This document shows positions 741 to 19,265 of a DNA stretch of 27,159 nucleotides, piece after piece. The notes under the pieces were generated by a model. That model did no database searches, was not told where the DNA came from, and saw only the letters and a program-made list of their open reading frames with translations. Source of the stretch: a virus; IMG/VR virus record IMGVR_UViG_3300035698_000562, positions 1-27,159 of that record. One strand, written 5' to 3'. The first letter of the stretch is position 1. Each line of letters opens with the position of its first letter. The translations under genes were made by a program, and so were the position numbers.

Positions 741-2791
741 ATTTGTTTAATTATAACATTGATTCCTTAATTGAACCATTAACGGAAAGTTTACGACATC
801 ATTTGTCGGACATCAAACCATCCGATTGGGCGGAATCACACCGCCGGTTGTCACCGGACGTGTCATTGATTGGCGGAAAATTTTCATATTACAATTCACC
901 ATATCTTCGAGAAATCATTGATTTTTATTCACCGGATTGTCCATGGAGTGTTGGCGCGTTCATGAAAGCATCACAAATTGGAAACACCGTTGGTGTAATT
1001 GAAAACGCACTTGGATGGATCATTGAAAATCAACCGGGAAACACATTGTATTTGGTTGGACATGCGGAATTGGTTAGTCCATCAATGTTGAAGATTGACA
1101 AAATGATTGATTCATGCAATATCCGCCATTTAATTCGCGCCACAACACAAAGGATCCGCCGAACAAAATCCGGTGACACCGATAAAATGAAGGAGTTTCC
1201 AAATGGGTATTTGCGAATGGGCCACGTCAACCATAAAAGTTTACGGAACGAATCATTTCAATATGGATTTATTGATGATTATGAAGCGATGAAAGGTGCA
1301 ACCAATGAAGCCGGTGCAACCGACAAATTAATTTTACATCGTTTTGCAGCATATGAAAAAAAAATGAAGGTGTTGTTCATGTCATCACCGGAGTTAAAAA
1401 ACCAATCAAATATTGAACCGCTATTTTTGAAAGGTGATCAAAGGTATTGGCACATCCCATGTCCACATTGTAATAAAAAAATAATTTGGCATTGGACAAC
1501 GCCAATGGTTAATGATCCGGAAGAAACCGCCGGCATTGTTTATGAATTGGATGATGGTGAATTAATTCCGGAATCGGTTGCATATAAATGTCAGGAATGC
1601 GGAAACACATTTGATGATCGAAACAAAATGGAGTTATTAAACGCCGGTGAATTTATTCCAACGGCGAAATCAAAAGAACCGGGATTTGTTTCGTGGCATG
1701 TTTCCGCGTTATATGCGCCAACATTTATGTATGGATGGACGCATTATGTCCGGGAATACTTGGATGCATATCCGCCCGGTGGCCAAGAATCAGAACCAAA
1801 GGCAAAAGCATTTTACAATCTTGGAATGGGATTGACATTTGAAGAAAAAACGGATCAATTAGATGGTTCACAATTACAAATGAACATCCGGAAATATGAC
1901 ATTGGATCGGTGCCGGAAAAAATGTCAATTGATGATGGCAATGGTCGCGTGGTGTTATTAACATTAGCGTGTGATTTAAATGGAATTGAAGTTGATGCGC
2001 GATTGGATTATGAAATTATCGCATGGACCGAAAACATGACAACATATTCAGTTCAACACGGATCCATTGGTTCATTTGTTCCGCGTGAAGGTACACGGAA
2101 GAATAAACCGGATCGTTATAAATGGACATATCATCACAATACAGAACGAAGCGTTTGGCCGGAGTTAGAAAATATTTTAAATGACACGTATGAAGTTGAT
2201 TCCGAAAATGGAAAACGAAGAATGAAAATTTTTTGCGGCGGAATTGATGTTGGTCATTATGATCAATATGCATGGCAATTCATGGACATGCATCAAGAAT
2301 TTATTTTATTTGGATTAAAAGGTGAAGGAGTGACCGAAAATCCAAGATTAAAATCAAAATACCTTCCAACCGAACACAATACATCATATTATAAAATCGG
2401 GAAAGCGCGTGATAATTTATTTATTGTTAATGTCAATTTGGTCAAAGATGATTTAGCGTCACGAATGCGATTGCAGTTCGATAAAAATATTCAAACAAAA
2501 CAACCGGCCGGATTCATAAATTATCCACAACCATCCGATGGTTTATATTTATTTGAAAATTATTTTAGTCATTTTGAGGCGGAACAACGTATTAATGAAC
2601 GCCGTGCCGATGGAACGGTGATTGGAACCAAGTGGAAAAAAAAGGTGTCAACCGCACAAAACCACATGTTTGATTGCATGGTTTACAACATGACCATCCG
2701 ACAAATATTCACCGATATTATATTAAAGGACGCCGGAATTAAAAACGGCCAATGGTCCGATTATTGTAAAATTATTACAAAGAAAAAATGA
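737..2791 (+). CDS. Terminase large subunit, lambda GpA family (684 aa)
   Basis: ATPase-nuclease that cuts concatemeric DNA and pumps it into the procapsid. N-terminal ATPase: a deviant Walker A, KASQIGNT, starts at K77, with the lysine at the beginning of the motif as in lambda gpA. A Walker B-like FIDDYEAM lies at about 178-185. A zinc-binding insert has CPHC at 242-245 and CQEC at 285-288, at the place where lambda gpA has its CPHC pair. Nuclease: a first catalytic Asp in LTLACD (about D413), a second in GGIDVGHYD (about D504) and a late FDCMVYN motif (about 663), matching lambda LDCFVYA. Length is close to lambda gpA (641 aa). The start overlaps the small subunit stop and its own stop overlaps the next gene, both as ATGA. 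The family implies cos-type packaging. Confidence 0.95.
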   Translation: MNLFNYNIDSLIEPLTESLRHHLSDIKPSDWAESHRRLSPDVSLIGGKFSYYNSPYLREIIDFYSPDCPWSVGAFMKASQIGNTVGVIENALGWIIENQPGNTLYLVGHAELVSPSMLKIDKMIDSCNIRHLIRATTQRIRRTKSGDTDKMKEFPNGYLRMGHVNHKSLRNESFQYGFIDDYEAMKGATNEAGATDKLILHRFAAYEKKMKVLFMSSPELKNQSNIEPLFLKGDQRYWHIPCPHCNKKIIWHWTTPMVNDPEETAGIVYELDDGELIPESVAYKCQECGNTFDDRNKMELLNAGEFIPTAKSKEPGFVSWHVSALYAPTFMYGWTHYVREYLDAYPPGGQESEPKAKAFYNLGMGLTFEEKTDQLDGSQLQMNIRKYDIGSVPEKMSIDDGNGRVVLLTLACDLNGIEVDARLDYEIIAWTENMTTYSVQHGSIGSFVPREGTRKNKPDRYKWTYHHNTERSVWPELENILNDTYEVDSENGKRRMKIFCGGIDVGHYDQYAWQFMDMHQEFILFGLKGEGVTENPRLKSKYLPTEHNTSYYKIGKARDNLFIVNVNLVKDDLASRMRLQFDKNIQTKQPAGFINYPQPSDGLYLFENYFSHFEAEQRINERRADGTVIGTKWKKKVSTAQNHMFDCMVYNMTIRQIFTDIILKDAGIKNGQWSDYCKIITKKK

Positions 2792-3483
2792 AAATTGGCG
2801 TTATTATGCCGCATCGCGGTGACCGAAATATTTTTTTAAAACAATTTAACCGGTGTTTGGATTACCAAACATTAAAACCGGAAGTGGTTGAAATTATTGA
2901 TTACAAACCAACATCCGATGTGGTTGACATCACACCACGTTATCGTGAAGGATATAAACGATTGAGTGGAAAAGGATTGGATGTGATTGCATTCATGGAA
3001 ATTGATGATTATTATCATCCACAATATTTGGAACAAATTGTTTCCGCATGGAAACGTCATCACAAACCGACCGTGTTCGGTACCAATTACACAATTTATT
3101 ATCACCTTCATTTAAAAAAATATTTTCGGTTCGAACATTTCCGCCGATCATCAATGATGTCCACGTTATTAAAACCGGATCTTCAAATTAATTGGCCGCG
3201 TGATGATGATCCATATACGGACCTCCATATTTGGAAACAATTCAAAGACATTGCAAAATCTAAGGGAGTTAATGCAAACACATCATGGATGACGTTCCAA
3301 CCAAAACAACATATTTGTGTTGGAATTAAACATGGAATTGGAATGTGTGGTGGACGAATGCATGTTGATCATTTATATAAATACAAACATTCAGATCCAA
3401 CACTTGAATATTTATCAAAAGTGGTTGATAAAGAATCATTGGAATTTTATAAATCATTAGAAATGCCACATTTTTTTCCGTGA
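2788..3483 (+). CDS. GT-A-type glycosyltransferase family protein (231 aa)
   Basis: Looks like a small soluble GT-A fold (GT2-like) glycosyltransferase. The N-terminus MKIGVIMPHRGDR is a typical first strand and nucleotide-sugar loop, and EIDDYYHPQYLE (about 71-82) carries the DxD-like metal/nucleotide-sugar motif. Similar DDxY sequences are common in phage glycosyltransferases encoded close to the terminase. The acceptor is unknown: it could be modified phage DNA bases, capsid proteins or a host glycan. No membrane segment is visible. It is translationally coupled (ATGA) to the terminase gene and is followed at once by a hairpin with a U-tract, so it seems to be the last gene of the packaging transcript. 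A catalytic role is likely from the DxD but unproven. Confidence 0.7.
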   Translation: MKIGVIMPHRGDRNIFLKQFNRCLDYQTLKPEVVEIIDYKPTSDVVDITPRYREGYKRLSGKGLDVIAFMEIDDYYHPQYLEQIVSAWKRHHKPTVFGTNYTIYYHLHLKKYFRFEHFRRSSMMSTLLKPDLQINWPRDDDPYTDLHIWKQFKDIAKSKGVNANTSWMTFQPKQHICVGIKHGIGMCGGRMHVDHLYKYKHSDPTLEYLSKVVDKESLEFYKSLEMPHFFP

Positions 3484-3493
3484 TCATTTTAAT

Positions 3494-3510
3494 TTCCTTC
3501 ATTGAAGGAA
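3494..3510. promoter_or_regulatory. 17-bp palindromic operator candidate, copy 1
   Basis: TTCCTTCATTGAAGGAA is a perfect 8+1+8 palindrome. Its exact reverse complement is found once more in the window, at 16683-16699 next to an RHH regulator gene. This copy lies about 85 bp upstream of the tail sheath start, so it is well placed to control the tail transcript. A weak promoter-like TTG (3547-3549) and TATTTAAA (3574-3581) with a 24-nt spacer lies between it and the gene, but it matches the Bacteroidota TAnnTTTG consensus poorly. Confidence 0.5.
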
Positions 3511-3520: not shown

Positions 3521-3596
3521 TTCCATTTTTCATGCGCGTATATTCGTTGACCGATGTAGTATGCAAACACACGTATTTAAATGAAAAAATTCACAC

Positions 3597-5108
3597 ATGA
3601 GTGATGCCGTAGGCCTTGAAAGGGTTTCAAAAATAGTTGGTTACAAAATTGTAAAGGCTAATTTCAACAACAACACGCCAAATTTACCGCAAAGAATCGC
3701 GATTTTAGGCGAGGCCAACAACGCGAATCAATCCGGTTTGAGTGTTGAACCGGAAGTTATTACAAGCGCAAAAGAAGCCGGTGATTTATATGGATTTGGT
3801 TCACCAATCCACATAATCATGCGGATATTGCGTCCACAATCGGGTGGTGGCATTGGTGGCATTCCAACCGTTGTTTATCCACAAGCAGAAGCAGTCGGCG
3901 CAACATCAAAAATTATTGACGTTACGCCAACCGGTACGGCCACCGGCAACGGAACGCATTATTTAAAGATTGCCGGCCGTGACAATGTTGATGGACAATT
4001 TTATGCGATTGGTATTGTTGCCGGTGACACCACATCGGACATCACCGCAAAAGTTGCGAACGCAGTTAATAATGTTTCCGGATCACCAATGATTGGTGAT
4101 GATTACACGTATGAAACAAGATTCACATCTAAACACAAAGGATTAACGGCGGATAAATTATCCATCACCGTTGACACCACGGAGGCACCCAGTATTGGAA
4201 TAACATGGTCGGTTGAAAATATTGAATCCGGATCCGGAACACCATCCATTTCCGATGCGTTGAGTAAATTCCAAAACGATTGGAACACACTTGTTATCAA
4301 TTCATATGGTATGCATGATTCCACAATGGATTTATTGGAATCGTTTAACGGCATTGCAGATCCAACGAATCCGACCGGAAGATACACCGGAATCATAATG
4401 AAACCATTTGTTGCATTAACCGGATCCACGGATGATGATCCAAGTGATGAAACCGAATCAAGAAAAATTGAAATGACAATTGCCATTTGTCCGGCACCAA
4501 ATTCCGCCGGTTTACCGATGGAAGCAGCCGCAAACATGGCGTTGTTACAAGGAAGAATTGCACAAGATAATCCACATTTGGATGTTCAAGATAAATTCTA
4601 TGTGGACATGCCGGTTCCAAGTGATGGTGACATTGGTTCAATGTCAGATTATGAAAACCGCGATGCATTTGTGAAAAAAGGATGTTCAACCGTTGAATTG
4701 GTTGCCGGAAAATTTAAAGTTGTGGATTTTGTCACATCATATCATCCGGATGGTGAATTACCACCACAATTCCGTTATGTAAGGAATTTAAATATTGATT
4801 GGAATATTCGATTTAGATATTATTTATTGGAACAAATTCATGTGGTTGGAAAGGCAATCGCGAATGACACCGATAATGTTTCAGTTCAAAACGTGATCAA
4901 ACCGAAAGGATGGATTCAAATTGTTTCAGATTTAGCGGATCAGTTATCGCAAGATGCGGTGATTGTTGACGCGGCATTTATGCAAGATTCAATTGTTGTT
5001 GCAATTTCATCATCCAATCCGGATCGTTTAGAAACCGAATTTTCATATAAAAGAAGTGGATTTGCAAGAATCAGTTCAACGAATGCAAAGGCCGGATTTA
5101 ATTTTTAA
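3597..5108 (+). CDS. Tail sheath protein, Mu gpL-like (503 aa)
   Basis: Predicted contractile sheath subunit that wraps the tail tube and shortens on infection. The length and the N-terminal pattern (a short leader, an extended NNTPNLPQRIAILGEANNAN strand, and a SAKEAGDLYGFGSPIH stretch about 60-75 residues in) fit the Mu gpL/FluMu sheath family. The central part is Gly/Thr-rich beta structure. The C-terminal end, with LETEFSYKRSGFARISSTNAKAG, resembles the conserved sheath core that interlocks neighbouring subunits. It opens the tail module after a 113-bp non-coding gap containing the palindromic hairpin and is followed at once by the tube gene, the invariant sheath-tube order of contractile tails. 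A tiny out-of-frame ATG at 3581 in the leader gives only seven codons and is not taken as the start. Confidence 0.9.
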   Translation: MSDAVGLERVSKIVGYKIVKANFNNNTPNLPQRIAILGEANNANQSGLSVEPEVITSAKEAGDLYGFGSPIHIIMRILRPQSGGGIGGIPTVVYPQAEAVGATSKIIDVTPTGTATGNGTHYLKIAGRDNVDGQFYAIGIVAGDTTSDITAKVANAVNNVSGSPMIGDDYTYETRFTSKHKGLTADKLSITVDTTEAPSIGITWSVENIESGSGTPSISDALSKFQNDWNTLVINSYGMHDSTMDLLESFNGIADPTNPTGRYTGIIMKPFVALTGSTDDDPSDETESRKIEMTIAICPAPNSAGLPMEAAANMALLQGRIAQDNPHLDVQDKFYVDMPVPSDGDIGSMSDYENRDAFVKKGCSTVELVAGKFKVVDFVTSYHPDGELPPQFRYVRNLNIDWNIRFRYYLLEQIHVVGKAIANDTDNVSVQNVIKPKGWIQIVSDLADQLSQDAVIVDAAFMQDSIVVAISSSNPDRLETEFSYKRSGFARISSTNAKAGFNF

Positions 5109-8487: not shown

Positions 8488-9657
8488 ATGGTCACGATTC
8501 CAACATTATCAACATTAATTTCCGATGTAACATCCGACATCGAAACTAAATTTGGTTCCAATGTTCCAACATTCGGAAAGGTATTTTTGCGCGCGGTTAT
8601 ATTGGTTCAAGCCGGTAAATTAAAAATTATGTATTTAATTTTGGCAAAGTTGCAAAAAAACATTTTTGTTGACACGGCCGATTCAGAAAATTCCGGCGGC
8701 ACCTTGGAAAGATGGGGCCGGATAAAACTTGGAAGAAATTCATTTGCAGCCACCGCCGGTGAATATACAATTCAAGTGACCGGAACAATTGCATCGGTGA
8801 TTCCGGGTGAAACAAAGTGGTCCGCAACCATTAATGGAGTGACAAAATATTTTATTATTGATGAAGATTATGCATTGGCAGCATCCACCGACACATTAAC
8901 CGTTCGATCATTGGAAACCGGTGAATCATCACGATTAATTATTTCACAAACGTTGAGGTTGACGCGATCGGTTGATGGTGTTGACAATGCCGGTTCGGTT
9001 ATTAGTGAAGATATTATTCCGCAAAGTGAAGAAGATTTGGAAGATTATCGCGCGGCGGTGGTTTCGGCGTTTCAATTAGAACCACAAGGTGGTGCGGCGT
9101 CCGATTATCGAATTTGGGCGGATGACGTTTCCGGTGTTTTAAAGGTTTATCCATATGCGGTAAATGGACAACCGGCGGATGTTGTGGTTTATGTTGAAGC
9201 GACCACGGCGGATTCAATTGATGGCAATGGAACGCCATCATCATCCATGTTGGATGATGTTTCAGCAGTATTCGAACAAGATCCGGACACATCAAAAGAT
9301 ATTGATGAACGTGGCCGGCGTCCACTTGGTGTGTTTAATTTGGACGTGGATCCGGTGGTTCCGATACCGGTTGACATCACCGTTCCTTCATCCACATACA
9401 CCACCGCGCAACAAACCGTGATTGAAACCGCATTAACTGAAAGATTGGCGAACATCCGTCCATTTATAGGTGCGGCGGACATTTTAGAATTACAAGATGA
9501 CACATTGGATGTGAATATAATCACCGCCGAAATATTATTAACATATCCCGGAACATCATTTGGATCAATTTCCATGGATGTCAATTCCATTAATGTTTCA
9601 ACATATACTTTTGAAAATGGCGAAATTCCATATTTAAATTCAATAACATTTAGTTAA
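8488..9657 (+). CDS. Baseplate J-like protein, Mu gp47-like (389 aa)
   Basis: Predicted wedge component that spans from the baseplate core to the fibres and transmits the contraction signal. Recognisable family features: an N-terminal helix-rich region, a GGTLERWGRIKLGRN stretch (about 70-84; the typical 'LdrlAal.GvpR'), a beta domain (about 90-165), then EEDLEDYRAAVVSAFQLEPQGG (about 180-200), which matches the very conserved 'ETDDELRaRll...pQGGt' motif. GRRPLGVFNLDVDPV (about 272-286) is the usual 'RPvga.v.V..p' segment. It lies one base after gp46 and two bases before gp48, the conserved Mu trio. Confidence 0.9.
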   Translation: MVTIPTLSTLISDVTSDIETKFGSNVPTFGKVFLRAVILVQAGKLKIMYLILAKLQKNIFVDTADSENSGGTLERWGRIKLGRNSFAATAGEYTIQVTGTIASVIPGETKWSATINGVTKYFIIDEDYALAASTDTLTVRSLETGESSRLIISQTLRLTRSVDGVDNAGSVISEDIIPQSEEDLEDYRAAVVSAFQLEPQGGAASDYRIWADDVSGVLKVYPYAVNGQPADVVVYVEATTADSIDGNGTPSSSMLDDVSAVFEQDPDTSKDIDERGRRPLGVFNLDVDPVVPIPVDITVPSSTYTTAQQTVIETALTERLANIRPFIGAADILELQDDTLDVNIITAEILLTYPGTSFGSISMDVNSINVSTYTFENGEIPYLNSITFS

Positions 9658-12742: not shown

Positions 12743-13761
12743 TCATAAAAATCAACGGTCAAAAATTTGAATATTTCGACAAATTTACGGTTGATTTGAA
12801 ATATAATTCAATCGCATCCACATTTTCATTTGGATTTTATTTTGATCCGGCAATTCATTCAAAATTACACGATTTTAAAGCATTCAGTAAAATAATAATT
12901 GAAGATAATAATGAAGTGATTTTGACCGGAATAATATTATCACACACACTTCCAAGATCACCAAAAAAACAATTGAATGTTGTGGCCGGTTATTCATTAC
13001 CCGGTCAACTTGGTGACACCACAATTCCAATTTCAAGTTATCCGTTACAATCCACATCCAAGTCATTAAAACAATTGTGTGATGATTTATGCGCACCATT
13101 TAATATTAATGTTGAGGTTGATCCGGACGTGATGGGTGATGCCAATTTAATATTTGATGAATCAACGGCAGAAGAAACCGAAACGATTCAATCATATTTA
13201 TCCAAATTAGCATCACAACGCGGAATTGTTTTATCACATACACCAACCGGATCTTTATTTTTAACAAAAGCAAAATTAAAAGCGTCACCAATTCTTGAAA
13301 TAGTTGAAGGTGATATTCCAAATCTTGAAATGGTGTTGTCGTTTGATGGTCAAGGGATGCATAAAAACATAAATGTTTTAAAAGATTCGGATCCGGAATC
13401 CGGTGCGGCGGATGAAGTAAGTGTTTTAAATCCATTTGTTGATATTGAAAAAAGCACCACGAAAATTTTAACATCCGGCGCGGCCGAAGATTTACAATTG
13501 GCGGTTAAATCAGCGTTGGGAAATGATTTAAAAGGAATAAAATTGATTATTAATTTTGACCGGTTTGATCCAAAAGGCAAAGTAATCCGGCCAAATTCAA
13601 TTATTACGGTGATTGATCCGCAATTAAAAATGTCAAACAAAGTTCGTTGGTTTATTGATAGTGTAAAATTAACCGGATCACCAAAAGAAAAAACCGCCAA
13701 TATCACTTGTTATTTACCTGAATCATTAAATGGAAATTTACCATCATATATTTTTGATTAA
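12739..13761 (+). CDS. Baseplate hub protein, Mu gpP (gp44)-like (340 aa)
   Basis: Predicted trimeric hub that links tube to spike. The start IIKINGQKFEYFDKFTVDLKYNSIASTFSF is the usual gp44/gpP first beta domain. It is followed by VVAGYSLPGQLGDTTIP and the STSKSLKQLCDDLCAPFNINV helix (about 108-128), matching the 'g.tl.ei...ia.pfgv.v' motif. LASQRGIVLSHTPTGSLFLTKAK (about 157-179) gives the second conserved segment, typically 'la..rg.ll..d..G.lv.tr'. It overlaps the gpN-like stop and abuts the spike gene, the order found in Mu (N-P-45). Confidence 0.85.
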   Translation: MIIKINGQKFEYFDKFTVDLKYNSIASTFSFGFYFDPAIHSKLHDFKAFSKIIIEDNNEVILTGIILSHTLPRSPKKQLNVVAGYSLPGQLGDTTIPISSYPLQSTSKSLKQLCDDLCAPFNINVEVDPDVMGDANLIFDESTAEETETIQSYLSKLASQRGIVLSHTPTGSLFLTKAKLKASPILEIVEGDIPNLEMVLSFDGQGMHKNINVLKDSDPESGAADEVSVLNPFVDIEKSTTKILTSGAAEDLQLAVKSALGNDLKGIKLIINFDRFDPKGKVIRPNSIITVIDPQLKMSNKVRWFIDSVKLTGSPKEKTANITCYLPESLNGNLPSYIFD

Positions 13762-14253
13762 ATGTTGCGAATAGTTCAGTTTTTATCAAGTAGGTTTGAA
13801 AAATTCCGGTTTTTTAAATTTAATATTTCAAAATCCAACACACAAGATGTTCGGGTTGTCGCGCCATTTGGCGTTGATTCGGTTCCAATTAAAGATATGA
13901 TGTTGGCATTGGGTGGAACAAGGATAAAAGGGAAAAGTGTTGTGATTGGTGTTTTAAACGTTAGTGGCGAAGCCGATGAAGGTGAAGTTAGATTGTATTC
14001 GGTTGATCAATCCGGATCAGTTAAAGCCAAGATTCACATAAAAAATGATGGAACAATTGTTGTGGAATCATTAAATATGAATATTTTAGCGGAAACACTT
14101 GCAATTGATGGTGATGTTACGGTGACCGGTGATGTAATTGCAGAAGGTGAAGTGACCGCGAAAGCGTCAACAACCGATGTCAGTTTATCAACACACCTTC
14201 ATTCCACAAGTGGTTATGGCGCGCCGACATCAACACCGGCACCGAACACATAA
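13762..14253 (+). CDS. Baseplate spike protein, Mu gp45-like (163 aa)
   Basis: Predicted membrane-piercing spike (gpV/gp45 type). Residues about 20-90 form the OB-fold-like part, with VRVVAPFGVDSVP and DEGEVRLYS. Residues about 95-138 are short repeats of Asp/Gly/Val/Thr/Ile (DGTIVVESLNMNI, AIDGDVTVTGDVIAEGEVTA) of triple-stranded beta-helix type. THLHS at 144-148 supplies the HxH pair (H145, H147), which in P2 gpV and related spikes binds an iron ion at the tip. Mu gp45 is about 197 aa. The start codon directly follows the hub stop (TAAATG). Confidence 0.9.
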   Translation: MLRIVQFLSSRFEKFRFFKFNISKSNTQDVRVVAPFGVDSVPIKDMMLALGGTRIKGKSVVIGVLNVSGEADEGEVRLYSVDQSGSVKAKIHIKNDGTIVVESLNMNILAETLAIDGDVTVTGDVIAEGEVTAKASTTDVSLSTHLHSTSGYGAPTSTPAPNT

Positions 14254-16463: not shown

Positions 16464-16652
16464 TTAATCATCATATTTATACGGTTGTTTAAACCGTTCC
16501 GGTTGATTTTCCACAAAATCTTTTAAAACCGGTTTCAACATTGATGTTATTGTTATCCCTTTATGCCTTGAAATATTCACAAGTTGTTGATGAAGCGCGG
16601 AATCAATTCGGTTAATCCTAACTTCCTTTGAAGTATTTGTGTTTTTTTTCAT
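16464..16652 (-). CDS. Ribbon-helix-helix (Arc/MetJ-type) DNA-binding regulator (62 aa)
   Basis: The only convincing gene on the minus strand. The core SKEVRINRI (beta strand), DSALHQQLVNISRHKG (helix A) and TITSMLKPVLKDFVENQ (helix B) is the ribbon-helix-helix plan of small dimeric repressors. An upstream extension in the same frame (from 16724) is possible, but it would translate the 17-bp palindrome, so I take the ATG at 16652 as the start. That places the start right behind a TAACTTTG promoter box, giving a nearly leaderless message. It lies between portal (stop-to-stop, 5 bp apart) and protease and is transcribed against them. Its likely target is the palindrome at 16683-16699 and the identical one at 3494-3510; autoregulation is inferred. 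Confidence 0.75.
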   Translation of the reverse strand: MKKNTNTSKEVRINRIDSALHQQLVNISRHKGITITSMLKPVLKDFVENQPERFKQPYKYDD

Positions 16653-16657
16653 GGATT

Positions 16658-16691
16658 CAAAGTTAGATGATTTTAAATTTATTTCCTTCAA
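16658..16691 (-). promoter_or_regulatory. Bacteroidota-type promoter of the RHH gene
   Basis: On the minus strand a TTG (16691-16689) and a TAACTTTG (16665-16658) are separated by 23 nt. This fits TTG-N17-23-TAnnTTTG, the known promoter pattern of Bacteroidota. The TTG is inside the palindrome, so a bound repressor would block the promoter. The start ATG is 5 nt past the box. Confidence 0.55.
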
Positions 16692-16699
16692 TGAAGGAA
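16683..16699. promoter_or_regulatory. 17-bp palindromic operator candidate, copy 2, between divergent promoters
   Basis: TTCCTTCAATGAAGGAA is a perfect 8+1+8 palindrome and the exact reverse complement of the site at 3494-3510. It overlaps the -33 region of the RHH promoter and abuts the TAATTTTG box that faces the protease gene. A looser related sequence, ACTTCCTTTGAAGT, lies at 16621-16634 inside the RHH coding region. Confidence 0.65.
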
Positions 16700-16700
16700 T

Positions 16701-16708
16701 TAATTTTG
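16701..16708 (+). promoter_or_regulatory. -7 box TAATTTTG ahead of the protease and head genes
   Basis: The sequence matches the Bacteroidota -7 consensus TAnnTTTG and ends 34 bp before the protease ATG at 16743. The -33 region (about 16678) has only a TTTA and is weak, so activity may depend on an activator or be low. The palindrome ends at 16699, two bases upstream. Confidence 0.45.
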
Positions 16709-16742
16709 AACACCTTTGCGGCATGTCTATTTTTGGAAATAT

Positions 16743-17747
16743 ATGGCAAAGGAAATTTATCTTTATTCATCAATTTATGATTTCGTTGCGGAATCAATTA
16801 TTCAAAAAATGGATGATTTAGCGGATGAAGATTTGGTGATGCGAATTAATTCACCGGGTGGTGAAGTGTTTTCCGGATGGGGTATTGTGGCGAAGATAAA
16901 AGAACATGCCGGATCCATCACCGGAAAAATTGATGGTGCCGCAATTTCAATGTCGGCGTTGATTTTACTTTATTTTGATTCAGTTGAAGCCATGGATGTT
17001 TCGCGAATAATGTTGCATCGTGCGAATATGTTTGTGGAAAATGAAGATGATCAGAAATTTTTGGATTCAATTAATGCGGATATTAAAAAACAATTGAAGA
17101 AAAAAGTTGATTCCAAAGTTTTTAAAGAAATTACCGGAATCAGTATTGACGAAATGTTTAATTCCGAAGAACAAAAAGATGTTTGGTTGACCGCAGATCA
17201 AGCGAAAAAAATTGGTTTGATTCAAAAAGTAAACAAATTAACACCGGCGGCATCAAAAGAAATTGCCGCAATGAATAATAAATTTTATAACATCGCCGCA
17301 ATCGGCGAAAATAACCCAATTGAAATGAAGGATCCAAAAGTTACTGTTGACACATTAAAAACATCCAATCCGGAAGTTTTTCAAGCAATTCAAGCCACCG
17401 CCGTTTCAAGTGAACGCGATCGTGTTGGCGCATGGTTGGCATATATGGACGCGGACAAAGAATCGGTTTTGAAGGGGATAAAAGATGGGTCCGCAATGAC
17501 ACAAACATTGCAAGCGGAATTGAATGTGAAGTTGGTAAACGCCGGAAAACTTAACAAAGTTAAGGCCGGAAATCCGGAATCACCAAGAGCATCCGATGAC
17601 AATTTGGATGTTGAGGTTGAAGAAAGGATTGTGAAAATTAGCGTTGCCGGAAAAGAAGTTGATTTAAGCGCGGAAGAATCCAAACATCAATTAAATGGCA
17701 TTAATGCCGCAATTTTACAAGCTAAAGAAGGAATTAAAATTAATTAA
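16743..17747 (+). CDS. Head maturation protease with scaffold-like C-terminus, ClpP/S49 fold (334 aa)
   Basis: Equivalent of lambda gpC with a Nu3-like part. The N-terminal domain has the ClpP pattern: MAKEIYLYSSI, RINSPGGEVFSGWGI (about 34-48), DGAAISMSALI with the presumed nucleophile S69, and IMLHRANMF with H92. A Gly-Ile-Ser-Ile-Asp segment and KDVWLTADQAKKIGLI complete the fold (about 130-165). Residues about 190-334 are charged and helical (SNPEVFQAIQATAVSSERDR, later VEVEERIVKI), as in protease-scaffold fusions that are cleaved during capsid maturation. A TTG at 16716 extends the frame by nine codons, but the ATG at 16743 begins exactly where the family begins. The gene is separated from the portal gene by the antisense RHH gene, unusual for a head operon. 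Confidence 0.88.
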   Translation: MAKEIYLYSSIYDFVAESIIQKMDDLADEDLVMRINSPGGEVFSGWGIVAKIKEHAGSITGKIDGAAISMSALILLYFDSVEAMDVSRIMLHRANMFVENEDDQKFLDSINADIKKQLKKKVDSKVFKEITGISIDEMFNSEEQKDVWLTADQAKKIGLIQKVNKLTPAASKEIAAMNNKFYNIAAIGENNPIEMKDPKVTVDTLKTSNPEVFQAIQATAVSSERDRVGAWLAYMDADKESVLKGIKDGSAMTQTLQAELNVKLVNAGKLNKVKAGNPESPRASDDNLDVEVEERIVKISVAGKEVDLSAEESKHQLNGINAAILQAKEGIKIN

Positions 17748-17749
17748 CC

Positions 17750-18190
17750 ATGAGCCAAGAAAACGCATTGAACACCGGTCAACAATCAATCACGCACACG
17801 GACACATCCAAAATATTCGTGTTTGACAACCGTTATGATAATTTTGAATACAACAATTCATCATATGTGGATGAAAATCTTTATGCCGGTCAATTAATGG
17901 GTGAAATTGCCGCCACGCGGAAAATCGTTCCATTAGATCCAAACGCATCGGATGGTTCACAATTACCGATTGGAGTATTAGCAAACGACCACGTGGTTTC
18001 CGGAGGCGAAACCAAATCGGTTTCACTTTGTGTTGCCGGTGATGTTGTTGAAAATAAAATACGATTGGAACCGGGTGTTCATTTGACCGATGTGGTTGAT
18101 GGCCGAACATTACGTTCAAGAATGGGAACCGACACCGTTGGAATCAAATTGGTCGGAAGTCAAGATTTAACGAATTACGATAACGAATAA
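17750..18190 (+). CDS. Head decoration protein, lambda gpD-like (146 aa)
   Basis: Predicted trimeric capsid-stabilising protein bound on the outside of the expanded shell. Its signature is YAGQLMGEIAATRKIVPLDP (about 45-64), matching the gpD 'l..GtvLg..tatgk......ga.dG...a.gil' pattern, followed by ASDGSQLPIGVLANDHVV (about 66-83). Next come the paired strands KSVSLCVAGDVVENKIRLE. It lies between protease and major capsid genes, the standard C-D-E order of lambda. The extra N-terminal 40 residues, relative to lambda gpD (110 aa), may form a longer arm. Confidence 0.88.
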   Translation: MSQENALNTGQQSITHTDTSKIFVFDNRYDNFEYNNSSYVDENLYAGQLMGEIAATRKIVPLDPNASDGSQLPIGVLANDHVVSGGETKSVSLCVAGDVVENKIRLEPGVHLTDVVDGRTLRSRMGTDTVGIKLVGSQDLTNYDNE

Positions 18191-18200
18191 ATAATTAGAC

Positions 18201-19265
18201 ATGAACATTTCAACATCACTTGCAAGAGCAGAATTAACAAAAGCATTGGTTGACGTTTACAAAGAACGGCCAAAAGTTTATGGATTTCTTCGTTCATTTT
18301 TTCCAACCAAAACATCAACCACATTAACCGTTTCAATTGAGGTTAAACGCGGAACGGAATATGTTGCGGAGGATGTAGAGCGTGGAACCGAAGGGAACCG
18401 AAACAACATGTCAAGGTCCACGGAAAAAATATTTTTACCACCGTTATATAAAGAATATTTTGACGCAACACAATTGGCGGTTTATGACCGATTATTTGCA
18501 TCCACCGAAATTTCGGCGGCCGCATACACGCAATTCTTAGAAGAATTAGCGGAAGGAATTGGTCTATTGGAAGATAAAATTGAACGATCATATGAATTGC
18601 AATGTTCACAAGTATTGCAAACCGGAATTGTTCAATTGAACGGTGGAACAAATATTGATTTTAAACGGAAGGCCGCACATATTGTGGATTTAACGGATAT
18701 TAACGCAAACCGTTATTGGTTGGCTGCAAATGATGCAACCGCCACGCCAATCCAAGATGTGATTGATGGCGCAAAATTAAACCGTGAAAATGGAAAATCA
18801 CAAGGTGGTGTTTTTAATGTTTTACTTGGATCACGCGCATATGAAGCATTGATAGGAATGCCAAATGTGATTGCAAAACATGATATTAAAAGTTTTGATT
18901 TAGGCATGATAAATGCACCACAACGAAATTCGGTCGGTGCGTCATTCCATGGTGTTATTGCTGGCGGATCTTATTCATTTAGATTATGGACATATCCGGA
19001 GGTGTACGAATCCTCAACCGGAACATTCACACCGTATATTGATGAAACATATATGATTATAATTCCGGAAACACCGAAATTTAAATTAGCCTTTGCCGCC
19101 GTTCCGCAATTAATAACAAACGGCCAACCACCACGTGTTGGATCATTTGTTTATTCAGATTTTCCGGATCCGCGAAAAAATGCGCATGATTTCATAGTGG
19201 AATCCGCCGGTGTTGCAATTCCAACGGCCGTTGATCAAATTTATACGGTCAAAGTATTAGCATAA
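18201..19265 (+). CDS. Major capsid protein, lambda gpE family (354 aa)
   Basis: Forms the icosahedral shell (HK97 fold). Hallmarks: the N-terminal arm followed by FLRSFFPTKTSTTLTVSIEVKRG (about 29-51, two parts), the family 'fl...fp......t..v..d...g' pattern; FLPPLYKEYFDATQLAVYDRLF (about 75-96, the 'p.i...~~~t......' E-loop region); EELAEGIGLLEDKIERSYELQC (about 112-133, the spine helix); and a C-terminal PKFKLAFAAVPQLITNGQ. Length is near lambda gpE (341 aa). It follows the decoration gene by 10 bp and is followed by the HeH protein and a terminator. This will be among the most abundant proteins of the virion. Confidence 0.92.
   Translation: MNISTSLARAELTKALVDVYKERPKVYGFLRSFFPTKTSTTLTVSIEVKRGTEYVAEDVERGTEGNRNNMSRSTEKIFLPPLYKEYFDATQLAVYDRLFASTEISAAAYTQFLEELAEGIGLLEDKIERSYELQCSQVLQTGIVQLNGGTNIDFKRKAAHIVDLTDINANRYWLAANDATATPIQDVIDGAKLNRENGKSQGGVFNVLLGSRAYEALIGMPNVIAKHDIKSFDLGMINAPQRNSVGASFHGVIAGGSYSFRLWTYPEVYESSTGTFTPYIDETYMIIIPETPKFKLAFAAVPQLITNGQPPRVGSFVYSDFPDPRKNAHDFIVESAGVAIPTAVDQIYTVKVLA

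Follow-up and report, generated by a model that had tools for sequence, protein, structure and literature searches.

What does a small regulator gene do on the opposite strand in the middle of a phage's structural genes, and what would act on the palindrome that lies beside it? The locus that raises this question belongs to an IMG/VR virus record (IMGVR_UViG_3300035698_000562), of which positions 1 to 27,159 were analysed; this whole stretch of 27,159 nucleotides is called the window here. Its late genes are located on the plus strand in the order terminase, tail sheath to portal, ClpP-type protease, decoration and major capsid, and from its promoter type and its relatives the phage appears to be a Bacteroidota phage. 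In the window the antisense gene is flanked directly by the portal and protease genes, and the junction comprises the following features.

16458, plus strand: stop of the portal gene.
16464..16652, minus strand: gene of the ribbon-helix-helix (RHH) regulator, which has 62 aa and is read against the late genes from an ATG at 16652; 6 nt separate its stop from that of the portal gene.
16658..16665, minus strand: RHH promoter, -7 box TAACTTTG; the ATG follows after 5 nt and the predicted leader is 1 nt long.
16683-16699, both strands: candidate operator TTCCTTCAATGAAGGAA, a 17-bp perfect palindrome; its centre at 16691 lies 37 bp before the protease -7 box, and it overlaps the -33 part of the RHH promoter.
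16704..16708, plus strand: TTTTG at the end of TAATTTTG, which may serve the protease promoter as its -33 element (N19 between it and the -7 box).
16728..16735, plus strand: protease/capsid promoter, -7 box TATTTTTG; the ATG follows after 7 nt and the predicted leader is 3 nt long.
16743..17747, plus strand: ClpP-type head maturation protease, ATG at 16743, first gene of the putatively controlled head unit.
17750-18190, plus strand: decoration gene, in the head unit after the protease.
18201-19265, plus strand: major capsid gene, in the head unit after the decoration gene.

The 62-aa reading frame against the head genes and the 17-bp perfect palindrome between the divergent RHH and protease starts had both been reported in the initial annotation, and both were found at these positions.

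The RHH fold takes up about 45 residues, with two helices after a short beta-strand; the strand pairs only in the dimer, and the paired strands bind DNA. Single-sequence searches with the window RHH protein gave no matches, Pfam gave none for it, and a search with a three-member RHH alignment returned the nearest relative only. The sole match of the window protein at E<0.01 was the Arc-like PHROG 582 (E=0.0011), which was also matched by seven family members. A profile built from 37 family members matched the RHH protein ORF56 (2k9i) with E=1.6e-4, and weakly AvtR and DinJ; in Pfam, three of these 37 members matched RHH_5 and one matched Arc. The single-chain model of the window protein (pLDDT 88) displayed an extended N-terminus followed by helices at 18-31 and 35-48. 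With this model RHH folds headed the Foldseek results, all with E-values above 0.7 and not significant. From profile and model we accepted the protein as a member of the ribbon-helix-helix (Arc/MetJ/CopG) superfamily, and the earlier assignment is supported by the profile match to ORF56. The antitoxin of a toxin-antitoxin pair was considered and rejected, as no partner was found and the RHH stop adjoins that of the portal gene; at most loci no other antisense gene is present at the RHH junction. Tandem forms, in which a single chain carries two RHH domains in the manner of a naturally fused dimer, were detected at the junction by profile in L006, L014, L024, L037, L104 and L124, and by reading in L023 and L039. 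The structure model of the tandem form was of low confidence (pTM 0.38).

Relatives were gathered by alignment searches with portal and capsid, which gave about 130 viral loci. Most of the loci covering the portal-protease junction have an antisense homologue by RHH profile, and in 56 distinct loci, window included and mostly metagenomic, the antisense RHH gene lies directly upstream of the protease gene and divergent from it. Where other genes, even kilobases of them, intervene after the portal, the RHH gene stays with the protease (L009, L076, L025, L030, L061). Among loci that lack RHH, the portal adjoins the protease in L031, L040 and L098, and only forward genes lie between the two in L026, L094, L099 and L103. 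Among cultured relatives, Flavobacterium phage FCV-1 lacks RHH by profile search. Two antisense genes lie beyond the portal in the stretches viewed of FL-1, and an annotated antisense gene is absent from those viewed of phiSM. Forward-gene blocks between portal and protease, some of them lysis-like by eye, occur with RHH present or absent (L009, L076, L026, L094, L103). Directly behind the RHH gene of L030 a second small RHH-like reading frame was recognised by reading on the antisense strand (8597-8767 and 8751-8933). The antisense unit can carry cargo, as extra genes follow RHH in L025, L017, L061 and L053, including a DNA methylase-like reading frame in L061.

The placement of their -7 boxes predicts that both divergent messages, RHH and protease, have no leader or almost none. 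The promoter-like sequence TTG-N23-TAACTTTG that had been described for the RHH gene is present, its TTG inside the palindrome. The near-leaderless start proposed along with it is conserved: box and ATG are separated by 4 nt in 15 of the 18 loci whose box is perfect, and by 5 nt in the window. In F. psychrophilum the -7 box occupies positions -12 to -5, and leaderless mRNAs account for only 5.5% (PMC9723704); with a box at this distance, transcription of RHH would begin on the A of the ATG or on its neighbour. Leaders shorter than 10 nt make up about 3.7% of those in B. thetaiotaomicron (PMC7366714).

For the forward promoter the -7 box had been assigned to TAATTTTG (16701-16708). This was not confirmed, as a TAnnTTTG at 34 nt from the protease ATG is common only to the window and L002. 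A perfect TAnnTTTG 4-8 nt before the protease ATG was found in 16 of 56 loci; since this position is conserved and is filled by TATTTTTG in the window, the forward box is most likely TATTTTTG and not TAATTTTG. The TTTTG candidate for a -33 element in this register was likewise found in the window and L002 only. The placement of TAnnTTTG before the two starts, 4-8 nt for the protease and with a peak at 4 nt for RHH, fits the promoter of the Bacteroidota primary sigma factor. The -33 TTG is inconsistent among the loci, and in F. johnsoniae a -33 motif was likewise not identified (PMC7366714). Forward and reverse promoters were compared in their -33 element and -7 box for a sign of activator dependence, and no difference was found. 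Promoter strength was dropped as such a sign, given this likeness and the F. johnsoniae result. At 13749-13762 of the window a perfect TAnnTTTG box is followed after 5 nt by the start of a late gene (g13762), with no operator copy.

The palindrome TTCCTTCAATGAAGGAA sits within a 19-nt imperfect arm pair and is moderately unusual, with p ~0.01 in a gap of 90 bp. The two strands of the window together contain 40 copies of TAnnTTTG, so that the box means nothing by itself; as the palindrome alone reaches no more than this p value and the box is common, the decision had to come from relatives. The nearest relative, L002, carries TTCCATCATTGATGGAA at the equivalent place, in which a single symmetric pair of substitutions has left the dyad intact. 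Of the 56 loci, 17 have strong dyads (score >=7) between 44 and 61 nt ahead of the protease ATG. Seven of eight control zones contained 0-1 of them; the eighth, which starts at 62 and adjoins the operator zone, contained 6. The operator sequences diverge widely among the phages (GTTCCCAAATTCGGAAC, CTGTAGCATTGCTACAG, GCATCCAATTTGGATGC and others), and in about half of the 56 loci a clear dyad is absent at the head site.

The distance between operator and protease promoter is strictly kept. From the operator centre to the first base of the protease -7 box we counted 37 bp in 20 of the 25 loci scorable for both features, and in 14 of 18 RHH clusters after clustering at 50% identity. When the box-to-ATG gaps were shuffled among loci, this result was reproduced 0 of 20000 times. 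Anchoring 44 usable loci on the box gave a peak of palindromicity at 37 (z=5.5), where 17 loci had at least 5 of 6 outer pairs; the next best offset had 7. The distance to the RHH gene's own box was variable, about 10-28 bp in the better-supported sites and 49 in two, and in the window the operator centre lies at about -38 from the predicted RHH start. Strict spacing at the protease promoter together with loose spacing at the RHH promoter would fit an activator of the first and an occluder of the second. Beside the RHH gene of L022 (17342 and 17368 in G007 coordinates) and of L027 there are two operator copies 26 bp apart, of which only the nearer one follows the 37-bp rule.

One further copy of the operator, which had gone unnoticed in the first reading, is present in the window, and it lies before the tail sheath gene.

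3494..3510, both strands: second operator copy TTCCTTCATTGAAGGAA, centre at 3502, the same as TTCCTTCAATGAAGGAA except for the centre base.
3539..3546, plus strand: -7-like box TATATTCG, 5 of 6, 37 bp from the centre of the second operator, with a predicted start at about 3551.
3597..5108, plus strand: tail sheath gene (PHROG 165, E=8.6e-80), first gene of the putatively controlled tail unit, which runs to the portal gene.

The gene at 2788-3483, between terminase and tail sheath, is glycosyltransferase-2-like, by a weak Pfam match (E=0.00055, below the cut-off).

The sequences upstream of sheath and protease were then compared on further contigs. Of 25 RHH phages, a set that includes the near-duplicate contigs G004/G005 and G010/G031, 24 have a private element shared by both places (shuffle p <=0.02 each); the sole exception is G019/L105, with no shared sheath/protease element. 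At the sheath promoter the operator is placed exactly 37 bp from the box in 19 of the 25. The contigs without RHH, G035-G038, lack a shared operator, the weak matches in G036 and G037 being the -7 boxes themselves. Clearly asymmetric operators point the same way at the two promoters (6 of 6 contigs), and near-symmetric ones are often flipped. In L022 and L027 a further copy lies 37 bp before TATTTTTG, ahead of the gene that precedes the portal. Tandem RHH proteins were not significantly associated with less symmetric operators (p=0.37), and the association of a beta-strand arginine with CC..GG operators is suggestive only (p=0.015, uncorrected for relatedness).

A perfect inverted repeat between portal and protease, whose own p value is only about 0.01, might be taken for a terminator, an RNA hairpin or a chance repeat. 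We give this next to no credence, as the repeat has a one-base centre and lies upstream of both predicted starts, its spacing to the -7 box is fixed in many phages, and some sites are not palindromic and are nevertheless exactly repeated. The terminator in particular was rejected for the position of the site relative to the two starts. Mere copying of a promoter has more to be said for it. In G003, G006 and G011 a stretch of 56-93 nt is nearly identical at sheath and protease, and most of the promoter has been copied in these three and in G018, so the spacing there is not independent evidence. The RHH gene could then be a plain autoregulated moron that controls itself only, its second operator being a functionless part of the copy; the few loci with extra antisense genes behind RHH (L025, L017) would suit such a cargo gene. 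In the window and in G001, G007, G009, G010, G014, G027 and G032, however, operator and 37-bp spacing have been kept although much of the spacer has diverged, and we consider the moron highly improbable.

A search of bacterial genome assemblies made after the rule had been found supplied a held-out set of five loci, from four bins assigned to Bacteroidota and one labelled Phycisphaerales. The antisense RHH gene is present in four of the five. L240, with the new operator TTCCGTTATCAACGGAA, and L241 have the site at 37 with all six outer pairs and L243 has a weaker one, L241 and L243 resembling the known L090 and L050; in L242 a clear dyad is absent at the head site. A sheath gene was identified in three of the held-out RHH genomes, and all three carry an exact operator copy ahead of it, 37 bp before a 5-of-6 box. 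The RHH-less L244 lacks gap, box and operator alike.

The gene is conserved, as are the position of its operator, the duplication of the operator and the linkage between operator and RHH gene. A host regulator or another phage factor could still be what binds, with the RHH gene a passenger beside one of the copies; the sheath sites have no RHH gene adjoining them. Against this, operator and RHH gene occur together and are absent together, the operator varies from phage to phage as the site of a phage's own regulator would, and the RHH gene remains beside one copy though its neighbours change. A different binder is improbable in our judgement.

The reading that we favour, and hold to be fairly probable on this sequence evidence, is that the RHH protein is a phage-specific late regulator, which activates the tail and head promoters from about -49 and represses its own leaderless gene. 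The RHH gene would be transcribed by host polymerase, presumably early, from the leaderless promoter on the opposite strand. A dimer of the protein, or a dimer of dimers, would bind the phage-private 17-bp operator at the sheath and protease promoters and, centred at about -49 from the predicted start, would contact host RNA polymerase, by which both late promoters would be activated. On the head side the operator also covers the core of the predicted RHH promoter, where the bound protein would shut down its own gene; late transcription that continues past the portal, running against the RHH gene, may silence it also. Operator binding by RHH, activation, autorepression and timing are what we infer from the arrangement of gene and sites.

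Repression could take the place of activation in this scheme: RHH would hold down both late promoters and its own until late infection or during lysogeny, and its relief would switch on the head and tail genes. Most characterised viral RHH proteins are autorepressors, SvtR offers a precedent (PMC5569661), and operators common to both promoters fit this equally well. A repressor, however, has no need of a base-pair-exact spacing to the -7 box, and such a spacing is missing from the very promoter that it should occlude, that of the RHH gene; a centre at about -49, moreover, puts the site upstream of the core promoter. An integrase was detected in only 2 of 22 contigs and an rve transposase domain in none, both counts being limited by the incompleteness of the contigs; within that limit a lysogeny repressor is not the general reading. 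We therefore regard repression of both late promoters as rather unlikely. Activation of the late genes with autorepression suits an operator that is phased to the late promoters and loosely placed at the RHH promoter. The autoregulated switch gating capsid synthesis that the initial annotation had proposed fits the data well, apart from its forward promoter, which had been placed at the wrong box. Its term repressor probably has the wrong sign for the head and sheath promoters, to which the operator is phased to the base pair, and would be appropriate for the RHH gene itself.

Taking the group as a whole, we lean slightly towards RHH proteins of this kind being an undescribed class of late activator in a broad group of Bacteroidota myophages, with private duplicated operators, rapid co-divergence of protein and operator, and promoters that relatives probably cannot use. 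No RHH late activator was found in the open-access literature searched, nor did we find there a description of late-gene timing in this phage group. If the reading is true, one protein of about 60 residues and two or three sites would make up a compact switch. Some 30 diverged protein-operator pairs would form a natural set for studying DNA choice by RHH proteins and the coupling of an activator to Bacteroidota RNA polymerase, and could supply orthogonal promoters for Bacteroidota. Late promoters would become predictable, by taking the operator beside the RHH gene and then seeking its copies 37 bp before a TAnnTTTG-like box.

A divergent repressor within a structural operon had been called rare in the initial annotation, but the layout has a precedent in immI of P22, where the RHH repressors Arc and Mnt lie within the late operon between closely spaced promoters and may influence late transcription that continues into the tailspike gene (PMC2629481). 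In P22 the gene served by immI is that of the antirepressor, ant, whereas here there is no ant-like gene and the target would be a pair of structural promoters. Viral RHH regulators have been reviewed as mainly repressors; the archaeal virus protein SvtR represses itself and binds most tightly at the promoter of a virion structural gene, and AvtR, also from an archaeal virus, is a tandem RHH protein, a form likewise present in some of the relatives here (PMC5569661). Both act as repressors on archaeal promoters, and a fixed spacing to a -7 box is not described for them (PMC5569661). That one RHH protein can activate and repress is known from AmrZ of Pseudomonas aeruginosa, which activates algD and represses its own gene (PMC3325190). 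AmrZ differs in being a cellular regulator whose algD site lies 282 bp upstream of the start. Small phage-encoded activators of head and tail late promoters that work from upstream dyad sites are known in Ogr of P2 and delta of P4. Ogr is a zinc-finger protein, in contrast to the RHH protein here, whose operators are private to each phage. Functionally nearest are Mor and C of phage Mu. Mor is a phage activator acting on host RNA polymerase from an inverted-repeat site upstream of -35, centred at -43.5 (PMC4390567), and C activates several late promoters, including I for head synthesis (PMC4461284). None of the 37 RHH family members matched the Mor/C Pfam models at E<=0.01. The likeness lies in a site at a fixed place upstream of late promoters, here 37 bp before the -7 box, and from site placement only we infer late-gene activation of the Mu C/Mor kind. 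What sets the present system apart from Mu is a regulator gene lying antisense within the late genes and an operator specific to each phage.
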